Positions 7,466-32,283 of a stretch of 32,283 nt of DNA are shown piece after piece. Every line of letters starts with the position of its first letter. Position 1 is the stretch's first letter. A program made the translations under genes and the position numbers. The notes under the pieces were generated by a model. The model saw nothing but the letters and a program-made list of their open reading frames with translations. It ran no database searches and was not told where the DNA came from. The stretch spans positions 1 through 32,283 of IMG/VR virus record IMGVR_UViG_3300029787_000202; one strand, written 5' to 3'. This DNA comes from a virus.

Positions 7466-8127
7466 CCTTTTACCATAGCTTTTTTATATTGTTCCAACCT
7501 TTCAAGGAATTTTTCTGCATATTCGTGTAATACAGGCTCTGAGAGCTTAAATTCTTGATATTGTAGGTCTCGGGTCGCGATAGCCACTACACCCTGCTCT
7601 ATGGGCCCGTAATGCGTTTTATGGGCTAAATAATAGGCCCCTAATTGACACTTGTAGTCCTCGATCCATTCTTCTCTTTTGGGCTTATTAGACTGTTTAA
7701 AATCAACTATTGATGGCTTTCCATATGCAATAGCAACTAAATCTGTAGTTCCTGCGTATTCTTTTTTATAAGCTAATGAAACTTCATTACCCCATACCTC
7801 ATCTATTCTTAAAGAATCTTTAATGACTTCAGCCATCTTTCTAGGTTTGATACCTTCTTCAGTTTCATTGTAATATTTTTCACCATTATAGTAATACTCT
7901 AAAACTCTATGCATTTCAGTTCCTACTGTAGATGCATTGTTCATAATTCTATCGGCTTCTTGATGACCGACTCTTCTTCGCCAATCATCCAAAAACTTTT
8001 TATCTTTTGTAGCAGATAATATCGTTGTTACACTTGGAACAGGAGCTTCATCTACTAAATACTTTCTTCCTGTTTCTGATTGAAATCTGTTATGTTTTTT
8101 GTAAGGATATTTTTTTATGATGTTCAC
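7462..8127 (-). CDS. RecB/Cas4-type PD-(D/E)XK exonuclease
   Basis: A 221-residue nuclease of the PD-(D/E)XK superfamily, RecB/AddB/Cas4-like branch. Visible motifs: H73 in GTEMHRVLE, E115 in GNEVSLAY, D129 in GTTDLVA, the catalytic D142-F-K144-Q, and the Q161-x3-Y165 motif typical of this branch. The cysteines needed for a Cas4-like iron-sulfur cluster are not present in the expected arrangement. It would process double-strand ends in recombination, replication or host DNA degradation. The start is a GTG at 8127; the next in-frame Met is about 60 residues in and would lose conserved sequence. It is convergent with the SNF2 gene, overlapping 4 bases at the stops. Confidence 0.88.
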   Translation of the reverse strand: MNIIKKYPYKKHNRFQSETGRKYLVDEAPVPSVTTILSATKDKKFLDDWRRRVGHQEADRIMNNASTVGTEMHRVLEYYYNGEKYYNETEEGIKPRKMAEVIKDSLRIDEVWGNEVSLAYKKEYAGTTDLVAIAYGKPSIVDFKQSNKPKREEWIEDYKCQLGAYYLAHKTHYGPIEQGVVAIATRDLQYQEFKLSEPVLHEYAEKFLERLEQYKKAMVKG

Positions 8128-8136
8128 AATATTCTT

Positions 8137-8355
8137 TTAGAATATTTTTACAATAAGTGCAACAATTAAACCGACTAGTGATGTAATTACAAACCCAGAG
8201 CTAGCTAACATAATTTTTTCTAATCTATGTACGTCAGTATGCAAATCATCAATTTTTTTATTAGTTTCTTTTTGCATAATCAGACACAGTTTTTCGTGGT
8301 CCGTTATTCTTTGGTGAGCTAATACGTCTTGTTTTACTATTTTACGTTTGACCAC
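8137..8355 (-). CDS. XhlA/holin-like small membrane protein, copy 1
   Basis: 72 residues. A basic N-terminus leads into an amphipathic helix (about residues 17-48, with DHEKLCLIMQK and RLEKI), then one hydrophobic C-terminal segment (about 50-72). This layout matches the XhlA-type haemolysin/holin-associated proteins. It is clearly paralogous to the protein at 30220-30408: about 22 of 39 aligned residues are identical across the helix, sharing DHEKLC, IMQK and RLEKI. The GTG start has GGAG eight bases upstream and overlaps the end of the 1022-residue virion gene by 14 bases. Unlike copy 2 it is not next to the endolysin gene. It may act in lysis, as an antiholin-like partner, or as a membrane anchor for another process. 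Confidence 0.7.
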   Translation of the reverse strand: MVKRKIVKQDVLAHQRITDHEKLCLIMQKETNKKIDDLHTDVHRLEKIMLASSGFVITSLVGLIVALIVKIF

Positions 8356-15972: not shown

Positions 15973-16803
15973 TTAAGAGGTCTTTGACAACTCATCCCAA
16001 AAAGAAGATCTATACTGATGTTCTCCGACATGAGTTATTTTTTCAGTAACTAACGCATGACATTTACCACCTATATCTCTCCACCTCTTACAGAAAGCAA
16101 AATCTTCACCTAAATATTGCTTTTTTATTGGATCAAAGTCAGTATCAAAAAGATTATAGAAAAAAGGTCTATTGGTAAGTTTACCATTAATGATGGTTTG
16201 TTGAATAATTTCTTTCTCAGGATAAGCTTTTATCATCTTTTCTATTACTTCTCTTTTTATCAACATACATCCAGTTGGCGAATGTGTAACTTCTATAACT
16301 CCATTTTTAATAGTGATATCTTTCTCGTTTGGTAATTTCATCGGGTATTGGTATAAAGCTTTATATTGTAAGTCATGTTCATTTTTAATTTTGCCACTTT
16401 TTATTTTCTCCCAAGCTTTATTCCAATTAAGACTCTTTAATGGGTAAGGCACTGAAATGACATCCTTCTGAGCTGCAATCATTTTGAATATAGATTCAGA
16501 AGAAAAATCTATATCAGAATCAATAAACAATAAATGTGTACTATCTGTTTCCATAAAACTAGATACACATAAGTTTCTACCTTGTGTAACCAAAGAAGAT
16601 TTCATTACTTGAAAACAAACTAACACGCCATTCTTCATGCATTGTTTTTGAAATTCTAGACAAGCTTGAAAATAATGTAAAGACACATCACTATGACAAG
16701 GTGTTGCTACAAATATTGAAAACTTTTTAGGTTTCAACATATGTGTCTTAATAGGTTTTTCTTTTGGTTTATCAAACCAGATAGGTTTACTAGGGTCTTC
16801 CAT
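15973..16803 (-). CDS. GT-A fold (family 2-like) glycosyltransferase
   Basis: 276 residues. The nucleotide-sugar-binding N-terminus starts at FSIFVATPCH (28-37). The metal-binding D95-S-D97 lies in LLFIDSDIDF; a GCMLIKR strand is near 178-184, the acceptor-side G-E-D-F-A-F-C-K-R-W (232-241) follows, and a late histidine is in ITHVGEH (256-262). These are the expected elements of an inverting or retaining GT-A enzyme. The substrate is unknown; modification of virion proteins, phage DNA or the host surface are all possible. It lies between the internal-virion block and a second glycosyltransferase and overlaps a small coiled-coil gene by 14 bases. An alternative start at Met22 would remove a Lys/Pro-rich leader but none of the motifs. 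Confidence 0.85.
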   Translation of the reverse strand: MEDPSKPIWFDKPKEKPIKTHMLKPKKFSIFVATPCHSDVSLHYFQACLEFQKQCMKNGVLVCFQVMKSSLVTQGRNLCVSSFMETDSTHLLFIDSDIDFSSESIFKMIAAQKDVISVPYPLKSLNWNKAWEKIKSGKIKNEHDLQYKALYQYPMKLPNEKDITIKNGVIEVTHSPTGCMLIKREVIEKMIKAYPEKEIIQQTIINGKLTNRPFFYNLFDTDFDPIKKQYLGEDFAFCKRWRDIGGKCHALVTEKITHVGEHQYRSSFWDELSKTS

Positions 16804-16990
16804 TTACATCCCATTTATTTATTAATTTTATTTTTTCTTCAGCATCTACTATTACTTGTAATAATTTATCTATTTCGTCTAGATGTTGTGGGTGTTCTCC
16901 AATCCCTACTGAATTACTAAGATATATTTTTATAGTTGTAGAGGCTTCTGCTATTTGTGCTTCATATCTTTTCTTAAGTGCTTTTAACAT
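16790..16990 (-). CDS. Small helical protein between two glycosyltransferases
   Basis: 66 residues: two charged amphipathic helices (about 1-20 and 36-60) joined by a loop, SVGIGEHPQHLDE. No family named with confidence, although the type recurs in marine phage contigs as I remember them. It overlaps the upstream GT-B gene by 17 bases and the downstream GT-A gene by 14 bases, so it is translated with both and may be a partner or a spacer subunit. Confidence 0.7.
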   Translation of the reverse strand: MLKALKKRYEAQIAEASTTIKIYLSNSVGIGEHPQHLDEIDKLLQVIVDAEEKIKLINKWDVNGRP

Positions 16991-17909
16991 TTTGTAGTGC
17001 TCCTTGTAAAAAACCAGTCCAATGACCAGCTATAACTTTCCAATTATAGAAGTGATTGAAAAAGGATTGTTGAAATTGAAGATGATTTTTACAACCATCT
17101 GTATTTATTTGACTTGGTATTCCATCTATGACTGCTGCAAATTGTTTTGCAAGATTTTTCCAATCTTTATCATAAGGTATATAGATTGGAAACTCTGAAC
17201 AAGTTTCATAAAGTGCTCCGTTGTCCGTTGTTGCTACATAGAGACCACAAGCCAGAGCTTCGATTGCAGATATACAAGATGTTTCTTCCCAAGTGTTAGG
17301 GTATACAAAAGCATCATAAGTATGAAGATTATCTAAAATATACTCATGTGGTTTGTATCCAATGTAATTTACATTAGGTAATTTTTTAGCTTGATCATAT
17401 AAGTCTTTATAAGTTTGATCATTTTCTTTTTTAAAATCATCACCATAAACCTGTGTGCTACTATATACGTCTAAAATTATATTAGGATTATTTACTAACT
17501 GCATTGCTCCTAATAAAACAGACAAACCTCTCCAAGGAGTTGGATGATAGATTAATTTTATTTTATCTCTCCTAGGCTCAAAGTCTCTTTTTACAATATC
17601 AGGTATACCATTTTTAATAACTGTACAACGGTGTTCAGGTAAAGAAAATGTTTTTCTAAACTGTTCATAGTTCCAATGACTGTTAAAAACATAATAATCA
17701 TATTGATTAATTTTTTCTTGATCTTTAAAAAAATCTTGAAAATGTGGTTGATCAGGTGCCATCTTTTGCCAAAGAATATTTATCTTATCTTTAGATAAAG
17801 GAACCTTACCTGGTACTGATGTGCAGATTTGAAACTTGTCTAATAGGTCTTTAGAAACATATTTTTCTAAAAAACCGTGTTGTAATTCTGTTCCACCTAA
17901 TGGTTTCAT
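16974..17909 (-). CDS. GT-B fold (family 4-like) glycosyltransferase
   Basis: 311 residues. It begins directly with the conserved GGTE turn (residues 5-8), so the N-terminal domain is short. The Rossmann-like C-terminal domain shows KLIYHPTPWRG (118-128), ILDVYSS, NYIGYKPHEYI (181-191), and the diagnostic E209-x7-E217 pair in EETSCISAIEALACG. This fits retaining GT4 enzymes that use a nucleotide-activated sugar. The acceptor cannot be told from sequence. The start is fixed by an ATGA overlap with the 58-residue gene upstream. With the GT-A gene two genes away it makes a likely glycosylation pair. Confidence 0.9.
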   Translation of the reverse strand: MKPLGGTELQHGFLEKYVSKDLLDKFQICTSVPGKVPLSKDKINILWQKMAPDQPHFQDFFKDQEKINQYDYYVFNSHWNYEQFRKTFSLPEHRCTVIKNGIPDIVKRDFEPRRDKIKLIYHPTPWRGLSVLLGAMQLVNNPNIILDVYSSTQVYGDDFKKENDQTYKDLYDQAKKLPNVNYIGYKPHEYILDNLHTYDAFVYPNTWEETSCISAIEALACGLYVATTDNGALYETCSEFPIYIPYDKDWKNLAKQFAAVIDGIPSQINTDGCKNHLQFQQSFFNHFYNWKVIAGHWTGFLQGALQNVKST

Positions 17910-18101: not shown

Positions 18102-18236
18102 CTATCGCCCTTGTCCACGATATTTCTTACGATGTGATTTTCTTTTGTTTCGTCTTTTAGTGTGTACACCTGGGCGTTTTTTTGGTGTACGCTTATGATA
18201 ATTATTTACTCCGTATAGTGGTTTCTTTTTTGCCAT
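18102..18236 (-). CDS. Very basic small protein (44 aa), nucleic-acid-binding-like
   Basis: A 44-residue ORF, starting MAKKKPLYGVNNYHKRTPK, with roughly 40 percent Lys/Arg and no acidic residues. It is connected upstream by a TAATG overlap with the dioxygenase-like gene. The composition suggests binding to DNA, RNA or a polyanionic virion surface, or DNA condensation in the capsid (inference). A second unrelated but similarly basic 44-residue protein lies at 29617-29751. A 19-base gap separates it from the next gene. Confidence 0.72.
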   Translation of the reverse strand: MAKKKPLYGVNNYHKRTPKKRPGVHTKRRNKRKSHRKKYRGQGR

Positions 18237-18805
18237 TATTTCAAAGGTTCTAATATATTAAAGTTAAATGCAATAGACACCCTAGGTTCATCAGACATAC
18301 TTTGTGATACAGCATGTAAATATGTTCCAGGAAAAATAGCTAATAAGCCTGGTTCAGGCTTTACTTTATAAGTTGTACGACTATCGATTGATTTATAAAA
18401 GTCCTCTAAACACATAAATGCTGTCGCATCATTTCTTTGAAATACTAAATCACCACTGTTTTTAGGAACTTTGTAATAATAAACTCCTGAGAATTGACTC
18501 TTACCGTGAAAATGAAGTGTATTATGAGAATATTTATAATTTTCATTTATCCATAAATACATCAATTGATACTTAAAATTTGTGCTTGTAAAATCTTTCA
18601 TGGCTTCCGCTATATACTTACCAAGTATTTCAGTAATTTTTTTATCTACAACGCTAGGAGTTTGATACCCACCTACATTAGAAAAATTAACACCCTCATC
18701 TTTTTTCTTTGTTTGATCTAAAGTTGTTTGTATCCAATTATCTAATTCAAAGTCTTGAAATTTATTCAAAGAAATCGCGTCACTAAAAATAATATGTTTA
18801 GCCAT
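18236..18805 (-). CDS. Putative 2-oxoglutarate/Fe(II) dioxygenase-fold protein 1
   Basis: 189 residues of double-stranded beta-helix type. The active-site region reads LHFHGKSQFSGVYYYKVP (97-114), with H98 and H100 and the SGVYY strand typical of the 2OG-FeII_Oxy_5/TIGR02466-like group. The distal end reads LHAVSQSM (163-170), then PRVSIAFNF (174-182), giving distal H164 and the 2-oxoglutarate-binding R175. The canonical H-x-D is not seen; H-x-H stands in its place. It may hydroxylate proteins or nucleic acid, or be a structural double-stranded beta-helix. It lies between tail genes, overlapping upstream by 8 bases and downstream by 1. Confidence 0.8.
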   Translation of the reverse strand: MAKHIIFSDAISLNKFQDFELDNWIQTTLDQTKKKDEGVNFSNVGGYQTPSVVDKKITEILGKYIAEAMKDFTSTNFKYQLMYLWINENYKYSHNTLHFHGKSQFSGVYYYKVPKNSGDLVFQRNDATAFMCLEDFYKSIDSRTTYKVKPEPGLLAIFPGTYLHAVSQSMSDEPRVSIAFNFNILEPLK

Positions 18806-19148
18806 TCTCCTGCGATCTGTCTATTTGTGCGTAACTTATAGAGCCTTGAATTTTATTACTGCCTGTGGCTGCGGTTATTGTTACTGAATCACCTGCCTCA
18901 AGGTTTAAACCCTGTGGTGTTGCATTGACTTGAGATTTAGCTGCAACATCATTTCTAAAAAATTCATATTCAGCATTTGAATCAGAAGAATCTACTAAAT
19001 TCATATTTACTACAATAGCTGATGAGGCATCATTATTAGCAACATAAATACTTTTAATTATAAGTGTTGCATTTGACGGACAGGTTAGCACTGTTGTTTT
19101 ACCTGTGCTTGCTTGTTTATATCCCTGATTTTTATATTGTATTGTCAT
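18798..19148 (-). CDS. Small beta-rich virion-type protein
   Basis: 116 residues, beta-strand rich, starting MTIQYKNQGYKQASTGKTTV. It contains IIKSIYVANND, a Ser/Asp loop (LVDSSDSNAEYEFF) and a closing LEAGDSVTITAATG-x-GSISY pattern typical of small jelly-roll or Ig-like phage decoration or tail-tip domains. No catalytic residues. It is joined by ATGA to the 54-residue gene upstream and lies just downstream of the tail-nozzle gene, so a tail accessory role is likely. Confidence 0.6.
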   Translation of the reverse strand: MTIQYKNQGYKQASTGKTTVLTCPSNATLIIKSIYVANNDASSAIVVNMNLVDSSDSNAEYEFFRNDVAAKSQVNATPQGLNLEAGDSVTITAATGSNKIQGSISYAQIDRSQENG

Positions 19149-19309
19149 GATAAAAAATAATTAAACGCATCTGCTTCATTTTTTATATCATTCTCATAAG
19201 AAAAGTTCAATTGAGTCTGAAGCGTTCGTAATGCTTGTAAAATTTGTCTTTGATCTTCTTGCGTATATTTTTCTTTTGGCTCAGGTATTTGTATAATAAT
19301 TTTGGCCAT
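19145..19309 (-). CDS. Small helical protein downstream of the tail nozzle gene (54 aa)
   Basis: A 54-residue ORF. It starts MAKIIIQIPEPKEKYTQED and continues as an amphipathic, Gln/Leu-rich helix (DQRQILQALRTLQTQLNF), then an acidic tail. It fills exactly the space between the nozzle gene (TAATG overlap) and the 116-residue gene (ATGA overlap), the strongest sign that it is real. It could be a tail or neck accessory or assembly factor (inference). Confidence 0.75.
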   Translation of the reverse strand: MAKIIIQIPEPKEKYTQEDQRQILQALRTLQTQLNFSYENDIKNEADAFNYFLS

Positions 19310-21492
19310 TATCTTCTACCATCTATTCTTACATCAAATCTAAATGTGCCATATCTCCAACTTTCATTCAAACTTTCATTTTCTATTTGTACAGCTGCCA
19401 GTCTTGCTCTAGCTCTTGTGTTAATTTTAGTTGTTGTGCTACTTACTGTAAAAGGTCCTAGGGGACTCGAAGCTGCTGTGGAACCTTGTGGAAACGAATT
19501 TACAAATATAGTTACTTTTGCATTACCTGCTATTCTTTTAAAGTCAGGTAAAAATCTACTTATACTCATCAAAAACTCTCCGTCACCTGGAACTCCAGCA
19601 TTACCATTTAAATCAAACTCTCCTGATTTAATAAAAGAGGTAATTGCAGTTTCAGTGCCATCTGCATTTGATTGATTTACGCCTACCTCATGAGCATAAT
19701 AAATAGACGCTCCATTTGAGACACCACTTACAACTGGGAATGTTGGCGTATCTCCTGAATTGAAATCTGTCGCGTACGGTTTTTCATAAACGGTAGAACC
19801 TATCCATGTTGTTCTGTCTAATGTTCCTGTGGTCCAAACATTTTCAGCGAAGTTATAAGTAACTACTTTATCAATGACATTTGAACCAGATGAGGGATAA
19901 AACCAATTTATTTCAGAATACAGTTCATTAATACCACCAAAAACTAATTGACCTGAGTTATAGTTTAAACCAGGATTGTTACCCTCTGTGGTAAACACAA
20001 AGTCTTCTACTAAACACGGAAGCGATTTGACAGTCCCATCATAAACATAAAATCCTCCTGTTTTACCCATCCAATACACTGCACCGTTTGCAAACACTCC
20101 TGCATGATTTCCTAACAATCCATTATTAGAACCAACTTTACGAATAGAAAATGTAAAAGGGGGTCCAACAAATTGCATTTCGTATGCAGCAGTATCGGTT
20201 AAAACTAAAATATAATCTTTACCTTTGAAAGCTCCCATGATTCTAGTCCCGTCATCTAACCTAAATGTTCCTGCGGTGTTCGTTGATGTTGGTGCATAAT
20301 CACTTGTGCTTTCTTGATCAGAAAATCTAATAAACATTTTATCTTGTGTTGACGGAGTACCAATAGTTGTTTCAGTTCCTAAATGAAATAAATGCCTGTC
20401 TCTATCTGATACTATTGTCATTACAGATCTTGTTGGCATACCTGTGCCAATGACTGCTCTCGTATTTAACGCATTGCCCGTTGCAGGGTTCCAAGTAAAT
20501 GTTTTTCCGTTGTGTATTGTAGCAATTAAAATACTTCCAAAATTATCAAAAGACCAGTTGGCAGGCTCAATTGTTACTGTGCTTGATGCAGAAGCATCAC
20601 CCCAACCTACAAAATCTGTAATGTCAGTCACAGTCGCTCCGTTAGTGTGCTCTGCTGCTGTCGTCCCGTTTATGCCTCTAGTTATTCCACTGATTGTGTT
20701 TGTCCCTGTGGTATTGGTTGTATAGCTCATATCCTCAGATCCAATTCTTAATTTACCGTTAGTCAAAGGTAAGTTTGCTGTGCTTGTAAGAACAACAGAA
20801 GATGCGCCAACAAGCATATTACCACCGTTGTTTATCGTTGTTGTAGTTGCTGCAATAGATCGTCCTCCAAAAAGGTATGTGCCCCAGCCATATCCATAAG
20901 TTTGATTTAGTGGTCCAACAGGCTCGTAGGGATTTACATCTAATGTTCCATCTGTAGTAACACCAGATTTACTTTCAGCTGAAGGCATTGTTATTGTAAA
21001 TGTCGTAGTCGTTGGAACGCTTTGAACTTCAAAAAGTTTGTCATCAAAGTCAGTTGCTGTGTAAATTGTATTGGCAGTAGTAAAGGATCCTGCGTTTGCG
21101 AAGGTAGTTATTTCTCCTACTTCTAAGTTATGAGCACCTGTTGTTGTAATTGTGACTGTTGTTTGTCCGCTGGTCGTTGTTATACTCGCACCTGTTTGAA
21201 AGTTATCTGTCTCTAAAGGAGTAACATCGTAGAAAGCACCTTCGTAATAAATAATTAAAACTTTGTCAGTGCCTATTGCAGCATATCTTTTACCGTCAGT
21301 ATCTGCCCAAACATGTTGACCCCTAGCAGCTCCAACTATTTTATCATCTACCAAAGCTTCCCAACCACCTATTTTTTCAGGCTCGCCATATCTAAATCTT
21401 ACGTTATCACCATCTACCCAACGACCCTCTGCGTCTGCTGGTGTAGATTGTTTATCAAATCCTGCTGCTATTTTTACTTTTGCTAAAGGCAT
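19309..21492 (-). CDS. Tail nozzle / DNA stabilisation protein (P22 gp10-like)
   Basis: 727 residues. The N-terminal signature, with GFDKQSTPADAEGRWVDGDNV (11-31), GGWEALV, GQHVWADTDGKRYAAIGTDKVL and YYEGAFYDVTPL, is that of phage stabilisation/tail hub proteins such as P22 gp10, which act like T7 gp12 tail tubular protein B. A Thr-rich insertion domain (about 95-300) follows, then beta-propeller-like repeats (RLDDGTRIMGAFKGKDYILVLTDTAAYEM, GAVYWMGKTGGFYVYDG). The C-terminus ends in a beta-rich domain with many Arg residues. It would form the tail tube below the adaptor ring. A good promoter lies just upstream, placed for a near-leaderless start. Confidence 0.78.
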   Translation of the reverse strand: MPLAKVKIAAGFDKQSTPADAEGRWVDGDNVRFRYGEPEKIGGWEALVDDKIVGAARGQHVWADTDGKRYAAIGTDKVLIIYYEGAFYDVTPLETDNFQTGASITTTSGQTTVTITTTGAHNLEVGEITTFANAGSFTTANTIYTATDFDDKLFEVQSVPTTTTFTITMPSAESKSGVTTDGTLDVNPYEPVGPLNQTYGYGWGTYLFGGRSIAATTTTINNGGNMLVGASSVVLTSTANLPLTNGKLRIGSEDMSYTTNTTGTNTISGITRGINGTTAAEHTNGATVTDITDFVGWGDASASSTVTIEPANWSFDNFGSILIATIHNGKTFTWNPATGNALNTRAVIGTGMPTRSVMTIVSDRDRHLFHLGTETTIGTPSTQDKMFIRFSDQESTSDYAPTSTNTAGTFRLDDGTRIMGAFKGKDYILVLTDTAAYEMQFVGPPFTFSIRKVGSNNGLLGNHAGVFANGAVYWMGKTGGFYVYDGTVKSLPCLVEDFVFTTEGNNPGLNYNSGQLVFGGINELYSEINWFYPSSGSNVIDKVVTYNFAENVWTTGTLDRTTWIGSTVYEKPYATDFNSGDTPTFPVVSGVSNGASIYYAHEVGVNQSNADGTETAITSFIKSGEFDLNGNAGVPGDGEFLMSISRFLPDFKRIAGNAKVTIFVNSFPQGSTAASSPLGPFTVSSTTTKINTRARARLAAVQIENESLNESWRYGTFRFDVRIDGRR

Positions 21493-21497
21493 GCTAG

Positions 21498-21526
21498 ATT
21501 ATATCATCTAATAGTAGAGTTTTAAA
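21498..21526 (-). promoter_or_regulatory. Promoter candidate for the tail nozzle gene, leaderless geometry
   Basis: On the minus strand TTTAAA (21526-21521), a 17-base spacer and a perfect TATAAT (21503-21498). Only CTAGC separates the -10 from the ATG at 21492, so transcription would start at or very near the start codon. There is no Shine-Dalgarno. This is the only gap of more than 40 bases between 15973 and 26300 other than coding sequence, which adds weight. AT-richness makes chance matches possible. Confidence 0.5.
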
Positions 21527-21539
21527 TATCTCAAAAATC

Positions 21540-22076
21540 TTAATCAGGCTTGAAGGAATTGTGTACTGCTGCGTTTAAATTGAAAGGAATTGCATATTTT
21601 GTTTCACCTTGATTTGGATCTGCCCCATGTTTTAACCATGATGAAAAACTTACAAAAGTTCCTTTTCTGGGAGTTACACTCATACTTAGCTCTGGAAAAT
21701 TTAATTTTTGATCTACATCATTTAAATACAATATACCTGAATACATGGCCGATGCATGATCATGTAATTTTGTGTAATCATCTTTATCAATCTTTATACC
21801 CCAAGCATCTGCTATATACACATGTTCATAATTTATATGTTTTGATAAAGCATCTAATCCCAATTTAAGCACCTTTATAAAATTAGGGTCATTTACAAAT
21901 GCATTCCATGTAGTCATTTTACCCTTTACATTAGTTCTATAATTTAAATTGTTCTCTGATATCTTATTTTCTATTTGTTGTATAAAATATTCTGAATCAA
22001 TATCTAAAGTAATTTCATGAAGAAATACCTCACGTTCTATCTTTTTTTGTATAATTTTATTTATCTGTTTTAACAT
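21540..22076 (-). CDS. Putative 2-oxoglutarate/Fe(II) dioxygenase-fold protein 2
   Basis: 178 residues. The active-site strand KLHDHASAMYSGILYLND (103-120) provides H105/D106/H107 and the SGILYL pattern of the 2OG-FeII_Oxy_5-like group, the same layout as the protein at 18236-18805. Distal elements are WLKHGADPNQGETKYAIPFNL (147-167), with H150 as distal metal ligand; K160 occupies the place where Arg usually binds 2-oxoglutarate. Activity is therefore uncertain. It overlaps a small gene upstream by 20 bases and is followed by the 47-base promoter gap. The substrate is unknown; context suggests virion proteins or phage DNA. Confidence 0.72.
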   Translation of the reverse strand: MLKQINKIIQKKIEREVFLHEITLDIDSEYFIQQIENKISENNLNYRTNVKGKMTTWNAFVNDPNFIKVLKLGLDALSKHINYEHVYIADAWGIKIDKDDYTKLHDHASAMYSGILYLNDVDQKLNFPELSMSVTPRKGTFVSFSSWLKHGADPNQGETKYAIPFNLNAAVHNSFKPD

Positions 22077-22299
22077 TCGGATTTACTAGATCTTCTTTTT
22101 TGACCTCACCTACATCTTTAATATCAGGATTATCAAAATATAAATTCCAATCCATAATAATTCGTAAAAGTCTGCCGCTAAAACCTTGAAAACTTTTTTG
22201 ATCAAATCTTAATCTTCTGTATTTTATTATTATCCAAACTTCTCTCCAACTAAATACTATATCTGCCCCACCTGTTTTTTTGTTTTGTTCTATTTTCAT
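22057..22299 (-). CDS. Small protein of unknown function between dioxygenase-like genes
   Basis: 80 residues with a Trp/Ile/Arg-rich central stretch (FSWREVWIIIKYRRLRFDQ, 16-34), FSGRLLRIIMDWNLYFDNP (40-58), and a charged C-terminus. No signal peptide or membrane segment is convincing, although the 22-28 stretch is hydrophobic. No family recognised. It starts immediately after the stop of the third dioxygenase-like gene and overlaps the next gene by 20 bases, so it is co-translated with this enzyme-like cluster and might be a small partner of it. Confidence 0.65.
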   Translation of the reverse strand: MKIEQNKKTGGADIVFSWREVWIIIKYRRLRFDQKSFQGFSGRLLRIIMDWNLYFDNPDIKDVGEVKKEDLVNPNVKTDK

Positions 22300-22845
22300 T
22301 TAACCTTTTGTGATGCCTAACATTATTCTTTTATCTTTAAACCATTCTTTGTGTGGACCGTCTGCATTTACATAATGTAAAAAAACTTGTGCGTGCCAAT
22401 CACCTTCAAAGTCATTTCTCCAATGTGCAAGTTCACATCCTTTATAGATTACTGCATCTCCAACATCTAATTCTATTTCTGCGCCCTCCATAAAAATAGG
22501 CCATTTAACCCCACAAGAATTTATTTTTACAGTCACACTATATTCACATGATGGTCTATCTTTATGTGATTTTAAATCTGCACCGTAACTATACATTCTC
22601 CAAAAAGTATAAGTGGGTAGTAATTTTAATTTTGTTTCTCTCTCCATCAATTTCTTTTTAGTAATCAATAATGAGTCAGTTACAGGATCTCCATAAAACA
22701 TAGTATCTCCTTGATCACTTTGTTCTGTATCAAAACTATTAAAATTAGTTCTGTGCTTTAATCTTGTATAATGAGTAAGTAACTCTATTTCCTCTTTTGT
22801 AAGAAAATTTTTAATGTGTTTATATCCGTTTATTAACGCATCCAT
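22300..22845 (-). CDS. Putative 2-oxoglutarate/Fe(II) dioxygenase 3
   Basis: 181 residues. FWRMYSYGADLKSHKDRPSC (81-100) gives the canonical iron-binding H94-x-D96 following the usual Y-x-x-G element. IELDVGDAVIYKGCELAHWR (124-143) provides the strand pair and distal H141; WHAQVFLHYVNADGP (150-164) follows, as in the prolyl-4-hydroxylase-like phage family. The expected 2OG-binding Arg/Lys after the distal His is not certain. N-terminal helix: FLTKEEIELLTHYTRLKH. It overlaps the fourth dioxygenase gene by 13 bases and abuts the 80-residue gene. Probable oxidative modification of a protein or small molecule. Confidence 0.82.
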   Translation of the reverse strand: MDALINGYKHIKNFLTKEEIELLTHYTRLKHRTNFNSFDTEQSDQGDTMFYGDPVTDSLLITKKKLMERETKLKLLPTYTFWRMYSYGADLKSHKDRPSCEYSVTVKINSCGVKWPIFMEGAEIELDVGDAVIYKGCELAHWRNDFEGDWHAQVFLHYVNADGPHKEWFKDKRIMLGITKG

Positions 22846-23408
22846 GATACTACTGAATATCTCACTCCTTCGGTTAATGGCTCTACTGCATGAGGAAACA
22901 TGAAATTACTTGGCCAAATAACTACATGTCCAGGTTTTGTTGGCATTTTTATAATCTTGTCACTATCAGCTAATTTAAAACATAAACTACCACCTTTGAA
23001 ATCATTATTTAACATTAAAATAGAACTATACTTTCTATTGAATGTTGGGCCATCATCGACATGAAATTTGTAATGACCTCCTATTCCGTACCTTAAAGCT
23101 TGCATGTCAAAAATAGCTGCTCTGTGTATGTCTGGAAAATCCCTTATATATTTATTCATTTGTTGAATAATTAAATAACTTAAATAATTATACCAATGCA
23201 CATTACTTAAAGAATCGTGTAATGGACCTAAACCTAAAATTTCAACATTTCTAATTTCTTTATTTACAATATCTTCTTTTTCACCAGCTACAGAACCTGT
23301 AACAAATTTTTTTTCTTTAAAGGTTTTGTTTAAATATTTTAAAAACTTAGTAATAGTTTTTGCATCAGGAATTGCTGGATAAATTCTTATATATTTTTCT
23401 AAAGACAT
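22833..23408 (-). CDS. 2-oxoglutarate/Fe(II) dioxygenase 4 (prolyl-4-hydroxylase-like)
   Basis: 191 residues and the most canonical of the four. YGIGGHYKFHVDDG (107-120) gives H116-x-D118, SSILMLNNDFKGGSLCF (128-144) is the signature P4Hc strand pair, KPGHVVIWPSNFMFPHAVEP (158-177) gives distal H173, and R183 in GVRYSVVSWM is the 2-oxoglutarate anchor. All iron and cosubstrate ligands are therefore in place. It would couple 2-oxoglutarate decarboxylation to hydroxylation of an unknown substrate. It is first of the cluster, with a possible promoter in the 37-base gap upstream and no clear Shine-Dalgarno. Confidence 0.9.
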   Translation of the reverse strand: MSLEKYIRIYPAIPDAKTITKFLKYLNKTFKEKKFVTGSVAGEKEDIVNKEIRNVEILGLGPLHDSLSNVHWYNYLSYLIIQQMNKYIRDFPDIHRAAIFDMQALRYGIGGHYKFHVDDGPTFNRKYSSILMLNNDFKGGSLCFKLADSDKIIKMPTKPGHVVIWPSNFMFPHAVEPLTEGVRYSVVSWMR

Positions 23409-23445: not shown

Positions 23446-23934
23446 TTAAACGAATAAATCTTTATGAAAACTTTCAACAGATTCGTTGTTAATATAATGT
23501 CTCATAAAATTTACACTTTGCGGAAAAGTCACAGAAGACAGATCAACATTTTCTAAAGCTGTTTTGTAAGCTTCTATTCTTGTTTTAATACTTGAAAATT
23601 CAGCTGAATTTAATTTAGCAGTATGTCTTGATAAAAATTTAGTAATATTTTCAATGAGTTGATTTTTTTCTTTTGTAAAATCTTCAGATGAGCAACTTAA
23701 AACATCATCTCCACTCCCAGGGTGAACTAAAGGTGCCTCTAAAACAACATTGTCCCCATCTAAACTAGCAAACTTTTCTCCACAAATATAACTATTGAAA
23801 TCATCATCACTTACAGTTTTTAATCTTCCGTCAGCTTTGATTATATCGAAATCTCCTCTTAAAAGTTTGAGATCATTCTCATCTCGAAGACCTAAAACAG
23901 CTCCTCCACTCATATTAAAATATATTACAGCCAT
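23446..23934 (-). CDS. Protein downstream of the tail fibre, possible fibre assembly partner
   Basis: 162 residues, starting MAVIYFNMSGGAVLGLRDEN. The first 80 residues are beta-rich and acidic; residues 85-135 are helical (FTKEKNQLIENITKFLSRH, SIKTRIEAYKTALENVDL). No named family. It starts at the tail fibre stop with a one-base overlap, a place where phages often encode a fibre chaperone, and its size is right for that. Equally it may be a small virion protein. Function is inferred from position only. Confidence 0.6.
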   Translation of the reverse strand: MAVIYFNMSGGAVLGLRDENDLKLLRGDFDIIKADGRLKTVSDDDFNSYICGEKFASLDGDNVVLEAPLVHPGSGDDVLSCSSEDFTKEKNQLIENITKFLSRHTAKLNSAEFSSIKTRIEAYKTALENVDLSSVTFPQSVNFMRHYINNESVESFHKDLFV

Positions 23935-25316
23935 TAGCTTAATTTATCCTCTAGTATTAAAAGTGCACCTGGACGGCCACTATTTGCATTCATACTTATA
24001 CCTACTGCTTCACCACCAACACCATAAACACCAAATTCAGAAGGGCTCGATGGTGAATCAGGATCAGCTACGAAAGTTGCTCTGAATGGAGCAGTAGCTT
24101 CATCTGCTCTATTACTTACGTTTCCTGGAAATCCACTAGGTGCTGTTAAATTTAATAACAACGCTGGGCCACTCGCAGTACCAGGTGCTCCGCCTCTCGC
24201 ATAGCCTTGTTGGTTTGTTGGAGGTTGATTGGGTGCTGGAACTGAAATACCACCTGCTGCTCCAGTAGCAGTCATTGTTGCTGGGTTAGCAAAAGTCGAA
24301 TCGCCACCCGCCTGTCCTGAGCTTGTACTTGATCCTGTTCCTTGTCCGCCTCCACCAGCTCCAATTGTAAAGGGTGCAGTAAAAGGTGATGGTGCTGGAG
24401 AAGATACAGTGGCAGAAAATATTCCTATACCACCGTTTCCACCTGGTCCTGTAGTATTCGAACCCGATCCAGATCCTCCACCGCCACCTCCACCACATAA
24501 GTAAGCTAAAATTTTTGTTGTGCCAGGTTGTGCTGTGAAAGTTGCAGTTGTTGGACTACCTCCTGCCATAAATGTTCTAACAAAATCATTTGATCCTGCA
24601 GCTCCTGTTGCTGCTGAAGTAATTCTTCCATCTTCATCGACTGTAATGTCAGCTGTTGTGTAAGACCCTGCCGTTACAGCAGTAGATTGAAGTTGATTAG
24701 GTCCAACAGAGTTGGCTGCCATTTTTGTAAGTGTTACATTTGATTGTAAAATTTTTGCTGTAGTTACAGCGTTTGATGAAATATTTGCTGCACGGACGGC
24801 ATTGTCGGCTATTTTATTTGTAGTTACATTTGATTGTAAAATTTTTGCGGTTGTAACAGCGTTATCTGCAATTTGTGCTGCAGCCACAGTTCCCCCCAAA
24901 GTATCAAGAGAAACTTCATTTAAATTTGTACCATCAGCATATGCTGCAAAGATGGCTGCTCTGTCAGGAGAAAAACCTGTTCCTGATGCAGTTTTAATTG
25001 TAAGGTTAGTTGGATTAGTTAATCCTGTACAATCAAATATATAAAATTTTTCAATACTGTCAGGTATTGTACAAACTGTGCTGGCTGCGATTGATGCAGT
25101 AGCAAATTTAATTACCATGTTTCTAGCATTTGATAATGTAGCGTTACTCATCGCTAAAGCTAAAGTTCCACCACTAGATAGTGTAACTTGTTCAAATCCT
25201 GCAATAGCTTGTTGAACTAAATTTAAGTTGGTATTTGTTTTATCACCCCATGTACCAGCGTTTTCGCCAGTTACCATAAGTTCTAGTTTTAGATCTGCTG
25301 AATAACTTGATGCCAT
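23934..25316 (-). CDS. Tail fibre / receptor-binding protein with glycine-rich distal domain
   Basis: 460 residues. The N-terminal attachment-like domain (1-110) opens with SYSADLKLELMVTGENAGTWG, a pattern common at the start of marine phage fibres. Residues about 145-215 are a chain of short repeats (IADNAVTTAKILQSNVT and variants), probably a trimeric stalk. The distal half (about 265-460) is very rich in Gly, Pro and Ser, with runs such as GGGGGGGSGSGS and GAGGGGQGTGSS, recalling polyglycine-helix adhesin domains such as T-even gp38. This part likely contacts the host receptor and would vary between relatives. It has its own Shine-Dalgarno (AGGAG) before the ATG. The 162-residue gene follows directly. 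Confidence 0.82.
   Translation of the reverse strand: MASSYSADLKLELMVTGENAGTWGDKTNTNLNLVQQAIAGFEQVTLSSGGTLALAMSNATLSNARNMVIKFATASIAASTVCTIPDSIEKFYIFDCTGLTNPTNLTIKTASGTGFSPDRAAIFAAYADGTNLNEVSLDTLGGTVAAAQIADNAVTTAKILQSNVTTNKIADNAVRAANISSNAVTTAKILQSNVTLTKMAANSVGPNQLQSTAVTAGSYTTADITVDEDGRITSAATGAAGSNDFVRTFMAGGSPTTATFTAQPGTTKILAYLCGGGGGGGSGSGSNTTGPGGNGGIGIFSATVSSPAPSPFTAPFTIGAGGGGQGTGSSTSSGQAGGDSTFANPATMTATGAAGGISVPAPNQPPTNQQGYARGGAPGTASGPALLLNLTAPSGFPGNVSNRADEATAPFRATFVADPDSPSSPSEFGVYGVGGEAVGISMNANSGRPGALLILEDKLS
24733..24848 (-). repeat. In-frame direct repeat in the tail fibre stalk
   Basis: The 26-base plus-strand sequence at 24733-24758 (beginning gttacatttgattg) recurs exactly at 24823-24848, 90 bases or 30 codons apart. 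Shorter related copies lie between them and beyond. In protein this is the TTAKILQSNVT unit of the stalk. The identical bases point to recent duplication or gene conversion; copy number could change by slippage or recombination, altering stalk length. Confidence 0.8.
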
Positions 25317-29752: not shown

Positions 29753-30223
29753 TTATTCTAACCATGGTGTATATGAAACCTTACCATCTATTCTTTGAGC
29801 ACGCAACGATTGATTTCTATTTTGATCTGTAGAATAACTACAGTGTATCCATCCAGATGTCGGTTCGTTATCTTTGTAAAATTCTAAGATGAGCTGGTCA
29901 TATTCCAACTGTGATTTGATATAAAGAGCTAGCTCTCTATTATCTACACCAGGTATTTCAAAGTCTGCTGCAGCTGCATTATCGTCTGCCACATGTTGGC
30001 TGTTCACACTGCTACCAATTTCTACACACAGCTGAGCACAACGAAATCCGCTGGATATTATTAGTGGTTTGCTATAATGCGAACGTATCGGTTGTAATAT
30101 ATTTACTGCAAGAGCTTTTAAATTTTCTATTTGTTCTGGTGATGGATTGTTATTGATGCCCTTACGTTCAGCCGTTTGGCTTTTGGTAAGCTCGTCAAGA
30201 GTTATGTTAGCTGTAAGTTTCAT
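29753..30223 (-). CDS. Peptidase M15 endolysin (zinc D-Ala-type carboxypeptidase/endopeptidase)
   Basis: 156 residues, a single M15_3-type catalytic domain without a wall-binding module or signal peptide. ISSGFRC (56-62) supplies R61; the metal ligands are H77 in NSQHVAD, D87 in AAADFEI and H127 in GWIHCSY; E114 in YDQLILEF is the catalytic acid/base. All expected residues are present. It would cleave peptide stems of peptidoglycan at the end of infection. Without a signal peptide it needs a holin for export, which fits the adjacent membrane protein gene, to which it is joined by ATGA. The 44-residue basic gene follows after one base. Confidence 0.9.
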   Translation of the reverse strand: MKLTANITLDELTKSQTAERKGINNNPSPEQIENLKALAVNILQPIRSHYSKPLIISSGFRCAQLCVEIGSSVNSQHVADDNAAAADFEIPGVDNRELALYIKSQLEYDQLILEFYKDNEPTSGWIHCSYSTDQNRNQSLRAQRIDGKVSYTPWLE

Positions 30224-30408
30224 TTTGTTAATAGCATAAATATCATGTTTGCCATGCCCATAATTAACATACCGGCAGACACTAACACAATTTTTTCTAA
30301 TCTACTTATTTGTGCTTCGATCTTGTGTATCTTGTCATGCGTTTGCTTTTGCATAATTCTGCATAGCTTTTCATGATCTTCTATTTTTTGTAACGCGTTT
30401 TTTTTCAT
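30220..30408 (-). CDS. XhlA/holin-like small membrane protein, copy 2, next to the endolysin
   Basis: 62 residues from the ATG at 30408, chosen because CAGGA lies six bases upstream and it starts one base after the previous stop; an upstream in-frame start at 30450 would overlap that gene by 41 bases. The amphipathic helix (KIEDHEKLCRIMQKQTHDKI, then RLEKI) precedes one hydrophobic C-terminal segment (about residues 41-61, LVSAGMLIMGMANMIFMLL). Its ATGA overlap with the endolysin gene points to a lysis cassette. About 22 of 39 residues in the helix match the protein at 8137-8355. Likely a holin or holin-associated anchor. Confidence 0.78.
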   Translation of the reverse strand: MKKNALQKIEDHEKLCRIMQKQTHDKIHKIEAQISRLEKIVLVSAGMLIMGMANMIFMLLTK

Positions 30409-30409
30409 A

Positions 30410-32283
30410 TTAAGTCCTGATAAATCTATCGTACCTGTCAAACAAGTCAAGTTTTTGTTGATTTGTTAAACTGGCATATCTACTAGTTGGGAAAGAACTA
30501 CTTAATTGAGCTTGCGTAACTTCACCTAAATTAGGAATAGTGTTAGGACCTGTGACAGGATTACTTTGTGTTTGTGTAACAAAAGGATTTTCAAATACAG
30601 GAAACTCTGCGTTTTCTAACGACACATCCATCATCAAATCTCTTAAATCAGATATAACATCATCAGCTGCATCTAAAGGATTATCAAAACCTATTCTTTC
30701 TGCATTTTCTTCAAAAGCTTTTCTAACTTCAGCTGATAAATTAATAGGTCTAAACTCGTTTTCTTCAATAGCATTTAATTCAACTCCTGAAACCCTGTCT
30801 GTTGCAGAATAAAATCCGTCTTCTGAAATATTTAAAAGTTGAGCTGCTTCTAAATCTAGTTTAAAATTTTTCTTAACATTAAATAAGGCTCTGTTTGCAT
30901 TTATGTATGCATCTACAATTTCTGTTGGCTCAATTGGACCACCTTTAAGTGTAAGTCTAGTGAACAAAGATCTAGAATCCCTAGATCCTCTTTGGAAGTC
31001 TGCAACTTTATATCTTAAAGTTCTTTCAGGATTTATGTTAACTGCTCTAAAACCAAACAGTCCACCAAACTCATCACCAAATTCATAATCCTGACCATAC
31101 TCATCAAATTTACTTTTAGTAAACACACGGTTTTCTTTTAATGATCTATCTAATCTTTTTAATTGATTAAAAGAGAAAGGCATTTGTGCTTTAACTAAGT
31201 GAGCCATAATCTTACTGTTCTTATCACCTTGTGTATCTTCTGGATTATATACTTGGAAACCATCTCTAGTTCTACCACCTCTAGCTATAATATCTAACAC
31301 AGCCTCGGTCCAAATAGATTCTGATATGAATGGTTGACCAAATTCTGACATAGCTGTGAACATACCTTTAGCAAAGTCATCCATCATTCCGTTTTGATCT
31401 GTGTTACCTTCAGCAACAGCGTTAATTACAGATTGTATAGGTCTAATTAAAGTATCGTAAGCGTTAGCATGACTAAAATCTATGTATTTAAAAGTTCCAT
31501 CCTCTTGTTTGATTGGTAAGAGAGTAGAGTTTTTAGACCATTTTGCAGCGTATCTTCTAATAGCTTCTCTTTCTTCATCAGTTACATCGTATAGAGCTTG
31601 GAACATTGCAGCTGTTCCCATAGGAACTGCAGCTACTGTTGTACCAAAACCAAACAATCTTGTGTAACCTGTTTTAGCAAAAGGTTTAAATGCTTTGCCA
31701 TCAATAATAATTTCTTCGTTAATTTCTCTTAAGGCTCGAGCAACAATGTTTGTTCCTGTTCTTGCAATCTCTGCAGGAAACGATACGAAGTTACCTATCG
31801 GTAATTTTCTTAATCCTTTTACAAAGTCAGATACATAATCATAGTTAGGTATATTATTTCTTACTATGTCTGCAGCTTCTTGTTCTAAAAAATCTTCCGT
31901 TAATCTTACTTCTGAACCATCTGCTCGTTTAAAAAATTGTCCTCTTGTTAAACCTATTTTTTCAAAAGATTTTTCCATTCTTTGTTTTTCCATAGCCCAT
32001 GAATATATTTTCCAAAAGTCATCTTCAGCTGTGTATAAATCTTGTGATACAGATTTTAATTTTGACAAAGGCTTTAATAATAATCTCATTCCTTTGTCTG
32101 ATGTCATAGTCTCACCAAAGTTTACATCTTCCATTAGTCGAGATAGATCTCCTAGTCTTACGTTTGAGTTTACTACACCTAGTCTTAAAAGTTTTTGATA
32201 CAATGCGTTTTGTTGCATTGTTCCTTTAAGAGGTGTTTGTAATGCTTGGTATGCTTGTTTAATAGCTTGTTTATCTGCAAAGG
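30410..32283 (-). CDS. C-terminal part of a very large virion/polyvalent protein (N-terminus beyond window)
   Basis: The reading frame is open to base 32283, so an internal Met at 32218 is not the true start; 624 codons are seen. The sequence is helical and charged. A conserved-looking block, DIVRNNIPNYDYVSDFVKGL then RKLPIGNFVSFPAEIARTG, recalls the C-terminal regions of giant phage proteins with 'large polyvalent protein associated' domains (LPD38-like; from memory, unverified). A hydrophobic stretch, GFGTTVAAVPMGTAAMFQALY, follows. The tail is low-complexity, with VTQAQLSSSFPTSRYASLT near the end. Such proteins are packaged and ejected. The enzymatic domains, if any, lie outside the window. 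It is immediately upstream of the lysis genes. Confidence 0.6.
   Translation of the reverse strand, partial: FADKQAIKQAYQALQTPLKGTMQQNALYQKLLRLGVVNSNVRLGDLSRLMEDVNFGETMTSDKGMRLLLKPLSKLKSVSQDLYTAEDDFWKIYSWAMEKQRMEKSFEKIGLTRGQFFKRADGSEVRLTEDFLEQEAADIVRNNIPNYDYVSDFVKGLRKLPIGNFVSFPAEIARTGTNIVARALREINEEIIIDGKAFKPFAKTGYTRLFGFGTTVAAVPMGTAAMFQALYDVTDEEREAIRRYAAKWSKNSTLLPIKQEDGTFKYIDFSHANAYDTLIRPIQSVINAVAEGNTDQNGMMDDFAKGMFTAMSEFGQPFISESIWTEAVLDIIARGGRTRDGFQVYNPEDTQGDKNSKIMAHLVKAQMPFSFNQLKRLDRSLKENRVFTKSKFDEYGQDYEFGDEFGGLFGFRAVNINPERTLRYKVADFQRGSRDSRSLFTRLTLKGGPIEPTEIVDAYINANRALFNVKKNFKLDLEAAQLLNISEDGFYSATDRVSGVELNAIEENEFRPINLSAEVRKAFEENAERIGFDNPLDAADDVISDLRDLMMDVSLENAEFPVFENPFVTQTQSNPVTGPNTIPNLGEVTQAQLSSSFPTSRYASLTNQQKLDLFDRYDRFIRT

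Follow-up and report, generated by a model that had tools for sequence, protein, structure and literature searches.

Four oxygenase-type genes beside the tail genes of a pelagiphage fragment, one of them from a family filed as ferrochelatase

Marine phages with many 2-oxoglutarate (2OG) oxygenases are a known kind of system: cyanophage S-SCSM1 has 24 such genes (PMC9602691), and a survey of HTVC023P-type phages distinguished eight non-orthologous 2OG families (PMC9599517). The oxygenases of HTVC023P (gp65-67 and gp71) and 023Pt_psg01 treated in the latter paper are of the same phage group, families and tail-side position as those described here. We analysed a 32,283-base virus record (IMGVR_UViG_3300029787_000202), called the window throughout, in which four oxygenase-type genes, D, C, B and A, are interleaved with tail genes. 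We consider it moderately probable that D and C, a conserved pair, hydroxylate protein or peptide side chains with 2OG and O2, and that A and B are accessory. By its predicted fold, C has been misfiled as a ferrochelatase. The four genes and their motifs are as follows.

22833-23408, minus strand: gene D, a 191-amino-acid 2OG-Fe(II) oxygenase of PF13640 (EGLN/PKHD-like) with a complete HxD...H...R site
23055-23063, minus strand: codons of the D metal motif H116-V-D118, read from the sequence and from invariant alignment columns
22300-22845, minus strand: gene C, a 181-amino-acid protein of 2OG-oxygenase fold by AlphaFold model, labelled 'ferrochelatase' in PHROG 2954 and T4-GC615
22558-22566, minus strand: codons of the C metal motif H94-K-D96, read from the sequence and from invariant alignment columns
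22417-22425, minus strand: codons of the C distal motif H141-W-R143, present in 79/79 sequences; R143 is a candidate 2OG anchor
21540-22076, minus strand: gene B, a 178-amino-acid protein of PF13759-type oxygenase fold with an HDH...H...K site; accessory and clade-variable
18236-18805, minus strand: gene A, a 189-amino-acid PF13759/TIGR02466 oxygenase with an HxH...H...R site; accessory

The DNA derives from an ocean virus related to those that infect SAR11, an abundant group of bacteria. The closest relatives of its tail nozzle gene (19309-21492) are in 023Pt_psg01 and in the Pelagibacter phages HTVC027P and HTVC023P, which identifies the window as part of the genome of an HTVC023P-type pelagiphage. 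A second contig was 99.98% identical to the window across more than 20 kb, covering the whole region of interest, and the four oxygenase genes are therefore not an assembly error.

An earlier sequence-only reading of this DNA had proposed four double-stranded beta-helix genes among the tail genes, one of them (D) with every iron and 2OG ligand, one (C) with H94-x-D96, and two forming a subgroup with HxH in place of HxD. That description held. All four are intact open reading frames (ORFs) with Fe(II)/2OG oxygenase folds by prediction or homology, they lie where it placed them, and the division into HxD and HxH subgroups is correct. The profile searches and structure predictions that it had proposed assigned A and B to PF13759 and D to PF13640, left C with no Pfam match, and gave double-stranded beta-helix models for C and B; A and D were placed by sequence comparison with PDB. 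As an interpretation, it was partly supported overall.

Gene D matched PF13640 with 62.1 bits (E = 1e-16; curated cut-off 27) and phrog_61 (E = 1.7e-32). Its profile retrieved PHD2/EGLN1 entries from PDB (E = 3e-10), and also PKHD/PiuC. Across 43 relatives (31-81% identity), the metal triad H116, D118 and H173 and the Arg 2OG anchor R183 did not vary. Some PHROG names were at odds with these matches: phrog_274 and phrog_2297, named DNA endonuclease V / DNA endonuclease, match A (E = 1.7e-10) and D (E = 9e-13), respectively, and a gene named endonuclease in 023Pt_psg01 (L122:6698-7180) matches the B profile (E = 1e-6). From these matches, the endonuclease names on PHROG 274 and 2297 are probably another misnaming.

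Gene C matched phrog_2954, named 'ferrochelatase' (E = 5.6e-49). The same label is on the homologue in cyanophage S-PM2 (T4-GC615) and is carried by a comparison of T4-like phages (PMC3037559). By sequence, C is a member of the family covered by PHROG 2954/3531 and the T4-GC615 'ferrochelatase' of cyanophages (S-PM2, Syn9, ACG-2014f). That functional name is at odds with the 2OG-oxygenase fold predicted for C. The AlphaFold model (mean pLDDT 94.6, pTM 0.90) was a double-stranded beta-helix, and Foldseek comparison with PDB gave as best match the Pseudomonas prolyl hydroxylase PPHD (E = 1.7e-8); the best 50 of the 444 PDB hits with E<=0.001 were all 2OG-oxygenase-fold proteins. Against viral models, C-family proteins named 'ferrochelatase' and phage 2OG oxygenases shared one match list. 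A sequence search of PDB returned only chance thymidylate-synthase matches (E ~0.5). H94, D96 and H141 were invariant in 44 phage homologues, and in a wider set of phage and bacterial sequences they were conserved in 80/80, 80/80 and 79/79, respectively; in that set R143 and C100 were also invariant and R97 nearly so.

In the accessible portions of PMC9599517 and PMC11561400 the family is treated as ferrochelatase, with no reassignment to the oxygenases, and its members are taken as haem or iron partners of the oxygenases or as a seasonal signal. If C were a real ferrochelatase, the pair would couple haem or iron supply to an oxygenase, as published for pelagiphages. PHROG 2954/3531 and GenBank names agree with that view, but neither C nor its 43 relatives had a meaningful Pfam match, the Pfam ferrochelatase profile matched 0/44 family members, and the predicted fold is not that of a chelatase. 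The invariant HxD...H pattern and the presence of some cellular homologues in peptide clusters also argue against it. We therefore rejected a ferrochelatase assignment on the predicted fold and the missing Pfam match, and regard it as very improbable. By its model, C is an oxygenase-fold protein misfiled as ferrochelatase, and the published pelagiphage pair of 'ferrochelatase' and 2OG oxygenase is best read as two oxygenase-fold proteins. Recent GenBank records of S-CREM1 and S-SCSM2R already name C homologues 2OG oxygenases, so the reassignment is not wholly new.

Genes A and B resembled the TIGR02466/PF13759 proteins of known structure (3bvc, 2rg4) in fold, HxH...H pattern and FN ending. Gene A matched PF13759 with 74.8 bits (E = 7.8e-21; cut-off 27), TIGR02466 with 66.1 bits (over the cut-off of 62.5), and 3bvc (E = 3e-16) and 2rg4 (E = 1e-15) by sequence profile. 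B matched PF13759 with 39.1 bits (E = 1e-9; cut-off 27) and fell under the curated TIGR02466 cut-off (31.7 vs 62.5 bits); it also matched 3bvc and 2rg4 by sequence. Its AlphaFold model (pLDDT 90.5) was a double-stranded beta-helix with a Chlorella virus collagen prolyl hydroxylase, vCPH (5c5t, E = 4e-8), and 3bvc (E = 1e-6) among its Foldseek matches, the best of which were mostly 2OG oxygenases. Residues H98, H100 and H164 of A (23 sequences) and H105, H107 and H150 of B (19 sequences) were invariant, and in the window sequences a basic residue follows the last His by 10-11 positions (A R175, B K160). HxH is kept across A and B relatives and is also present in aligned 3bvc and 2rg4, and it is therefore the norm of the PF13759 family and not a defect.

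Purifying selection acts on each of the four genes. The ratio of nonsynonymous to synonymous substitution (dN/dS; Nei-Gojobori, close relatives) was lowest in C (0.08-0.21), followed by D (0.15-0.30), B (0.21-0.59) and A (~0.5, two pairs only). The D-C pair forms the constrained core, to which A and B seem accessory.

Genes D and C overlap, with the end of D 13 bases inside C. Loci for comparison were retrieved with the window proteins as bait and are interrelated, so the pairing and correlation figures describe this lineage and not all phages. D lay directly upstream of C in 84/87 loci, or 25/27 after C was clustered at 70% identity. The three exceptions were the records of HTVC023P, HTVC033P and 023Pt_psg01, with an A-type gene between D and C. 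Homologues of D, C, A and the nozzle protein are recognised in HTVC023P and 023Pt_psg01; these records list C as a ferrochelatase and some genes of B or A type as hypothetical. Single-ORF fusions in the order C-D were found in cyanophage ACG-2014f (a 362-amino-acid protein) and in three contigs of bacterial genome bins (L131, L137, L151). Across 42 loci the distance correlation between D and C was 0.88, and 0.82 as a partial correlation given the nozzle gene; that between C and the nozzle gene given D was 0.08. These results show that D and C are one conserved unit, coevolving largely independently of the nozzle gene. Four contigs of the Maricaulis metagenome-assembled genome IN14 (L128, L169, L170, L176) hold D-C, or D, C and A, alongside a phage nozzle gene, with glycosyltransferases too in two cases; because of these phage genes they are misbinned phage contigs or prophages.

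Cellular genome bins contained C-family genes at 60 loci, some of them phage-like. In Brevundimonas (L172) the C gene is flanked on one side by a lasso cyclase (NF033535, E = 6e-76, a match that does not reach the curated cut-off of that family) and on the other by a B2 protease of lasso type (NF033537, E = 8.9e-20, over cut-off), with a PqqD-like chaperone upstream. This region (L172:5551-9184) is a probable lasso-peptide cluster, and a 48-amino-acid ORF at 7789-7932 may be its precursor. The Mycobacterium C gene (L156) comes after a LanM-type lanthipeptide synthetase, and those of two cyanobacterial lineages and a Cyclobacteriaceae bin (L134, L144, L174) adjoin genes of nonribosomal peptide synthetase (NRPS) or polyketide synthase type. 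Among 2OG hydroxylases of ribosomally synthesized and post-translationally modified peptides (RiPPs), CanE of canucin A is known experimentally to beta-hydroxylate Asp in a lasso peptide (PMC9266682), and the same types of partner surround the C-family gene of Brevundimonas; the likeness of CanE to C is one of cluster partners. From the clusters and CanE we infer hydroxylation of peptide or protein side chains. The predicted folds of C and B and the profile of D are likewise nearest to prolyl hydroxylases. The hydroxylation proposed by the sequence-only reading thus has indirect support, from fold and from some bacterial C homologues in peptide-biosynthesis clusters, with a candidate substrate. 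The equal length of the Mycobacterium homologue and its LanM neighbour also raised the question of whether C is orthologous to CinX, the hydroxylase of cinnamycin. We do not claim this: the C-terminal third of that homologue looks repeat-like, and no cinnamycin-type precursor was found.

The tail region carries, as a cassette, genes for four proteins of Fe(II)/2OG-oxygenase type. Working together, D and C would add hydroxyl groups to side chains of a protein or peptide of ribosomal origin, with 2OG and O2 as co-substrates; A and B would be accessory oxygenases of broadly similar kind, from PF13759. As target, a protein synthesized concurrently is most likely: the Gly-rich tail fibre is the first candidate, and host proteins are possible ones. 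The neighbouring genes are as follows.

23934-25316, minus strand: Gly-rich tail-fibre-like protein, 460 amino acids, two genes upstream of D (PF21722, E = 5.7e-7; tail fibre PHROGs)
23446-23934, minus strand: 162-amino-acid protein between the fibre and D, with no PHROG match; some of the loci have a homologue in this position
22057-22299, minus strand: 80-amino-acid protein between C and B, with no family in Pfam or PHROG
19309-21492, minus strand: tail nozzle or stabilization-like structural protein, 727 amino acids (phrog_3287, E = 9e-85), with homologues in HTVC023P, HTVC027P and CRP-902
16974-17909, minus strand: glycosyltransferase 1 (PF00534, E = 1e-13)
15973-16803, minus strand: putative glycosyltransferase 2, GT-A-like (phrog_1574, E = 1e-38; Anp1 0.0036, under the Pfam cut-off)

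A homologue of the Gly-rich fibre-like protein lay two genes upstream of D in 61/61 window-like loci with enough sequence, and 13% of background ORFs were equally Gly-rich. By this association the fibre is a candidate substrate of D and C. In the accessible portions of the cyanophage papers, no virion proteomics was found that lists these oxygenases among the proteins of the virion. It is a tentative and rather unlikely proposal that D and C are the halves of a phage two-enzyme peptide hydroxylase whose mark is placed on the Gly-rich tail fibre, or on another virion protein, of the same phage.

The targets might instead be in the host: proteins such as EF-Tu or those of the ribosome, or else 2OG and nitrogen signalling. 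The best PDB match of C is a Pseudomonas prolyl hydroxylase solved with EF-Tu, D and C evolve independently of the nozzle gene, and a role in 2OG signalling has been proposed for cyanophages (PMC3037559). However, the strict position after the tail fibre speaks against a host target, and nothing indicates a specific one; we rate this alternative as possible, though on the unlikely side.

Oxygenase genes between D and the first glycosyltransferase numbered 2 to 6, mostly 3 (37 loci), and the Pelagibacter myoviruses HTVC008M and Mosig have runs of oxygenase genes beside neck or tail-fibre genes. The suggestion that four such genes are unusual was therefore ruled out, by these sibling loci together with PMC9602691, PMC9964418 and PMC9599517. 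In HTVC027P, gp72 and gp74 (L121:10093-11754), annotated as hypothetical, match the B oxygenase profile (E = 7e-14 and 1e-51), and this phage therefore has three oxygenase genes, not gp73 alone.

The glycosyltransferase pair lay downstream in nearly all window-like loci reaching that far. This would fit the two-step decoration of the virion suggested by the earlier reading, with fibre or capsid residues first hydroxylated by the oxygenases and then given sugars by the glycosyltransferases nearby. However, neither glycosyltransferase has a homologue in the complete, circular 023Pt_psg01, where all of D, C, A and B have one, or in HTVC033P, which carries three oxygenase genes. Obligatory coupling of the two steps was thereby rejected, and we regard two-step decoration as improbable.

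Several observations weigh against hydroxylation by a D-C pair or against its placement on the tail. The Arg/Lys 2OG anchor of strand VIII, usually ~9-14 residues after the distal His, is absent from C, where the position is held by the variable H151; C is therefore a variant, and its use of 2OG is not certain. This anchor is common, not universal, in the 2OG-Fe(II) oxygenase superfamily. EGLN/PHD2, Pseudomonas PPHD and PKHD/PiuC are alike in the fold of C and the sequence profile of D; C differs from them in having R143, C100 and the near-invariant R97 instead of the strand-VIII residue. R143, R97 or R83 could serve as substitute anchor. HHalign profile comparison of C with D and with A gave no alignment, and the kinship of C and D therefore rests on fold. 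Recognisable peptide clusters were a handful of ~45 cellular C loci, the rest having mixed neighbours, and activity is known for no phage member of these oxygenases. In HTVC027P and HTVC008M the oxygenase genes are opposite in strand to their structural neighbours, and CRP-902 has the nozzle gene with no such oxygenase gene nearby. The ACG-2014f fusion lies away from tail genes, a few kb from nrd genes. Since the pair is found away from tail genes and evolves apart from the nozzle gene, a tail-specific target is weakened, and for the same reasons placement beside the fibre is not proof of substrate.

The missing canonical anchor would also suit a scenario in which C, perhaps with B and A, is a catalytically dead or cupin-like partner that scaffolds D. 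Two-domain 2OG enzymes with one inactive domain exist (Tpa1/OGFOD1). The HxD...H triad of C is, however, invariant in ~80 sequences, its dN/dS is the lowest of the four, and bacterial C homologues in peptide clusters are also found without an adjacent D. We consider a scaffolding role doubtful, and continue to favour hydroxylation by the D-C pair.

Outside the oxygenase region, the otherwise 99.98% identical contig (L019, L076) diverged abruptly from the window at 30225/30226, the start of an M15 peptidase gene. Beyond this junction L019 holds an extra A-like oxygenase gene (L019:1234-1854), and the window holds a second pair of internal virion protein and small protein resembling that of 023Pt_psg01. 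Both junction forms were found in at least one further contig each, which suggests natural mosaicism. The small proteins at 8137-8355 and 30220-30450 were 48% identical over 58 residues (E 2e-16); both adjoin a large internal-virion-type protein, as a duplicated or mosaic end-of-module unit.

Two matters are worth following. One is that the 'ferrochelatase' family is reassigned; the other is the D-C pair and its connection with the hydroxylation of peptides. Should PHROG 2954 be a family of oxygenases, there would be no haem step, only paired protein or peptide hydroxylase-like enzymes, and the interpretations of both PMC9599517 and PMC11561400 would change. Through its connection with RiPP clusters, the target of a widespread marine-phage oxygenase family becomes a specific question open to testing. 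If D and C are a two-enzyme peptide hydroxylase, the widespread marine-phage 'ferrochelatase' would be a subfamily of 2OG oxygenases whose 2OG anchor has moved, shared with bacterial RiPP and NRPS pathways.

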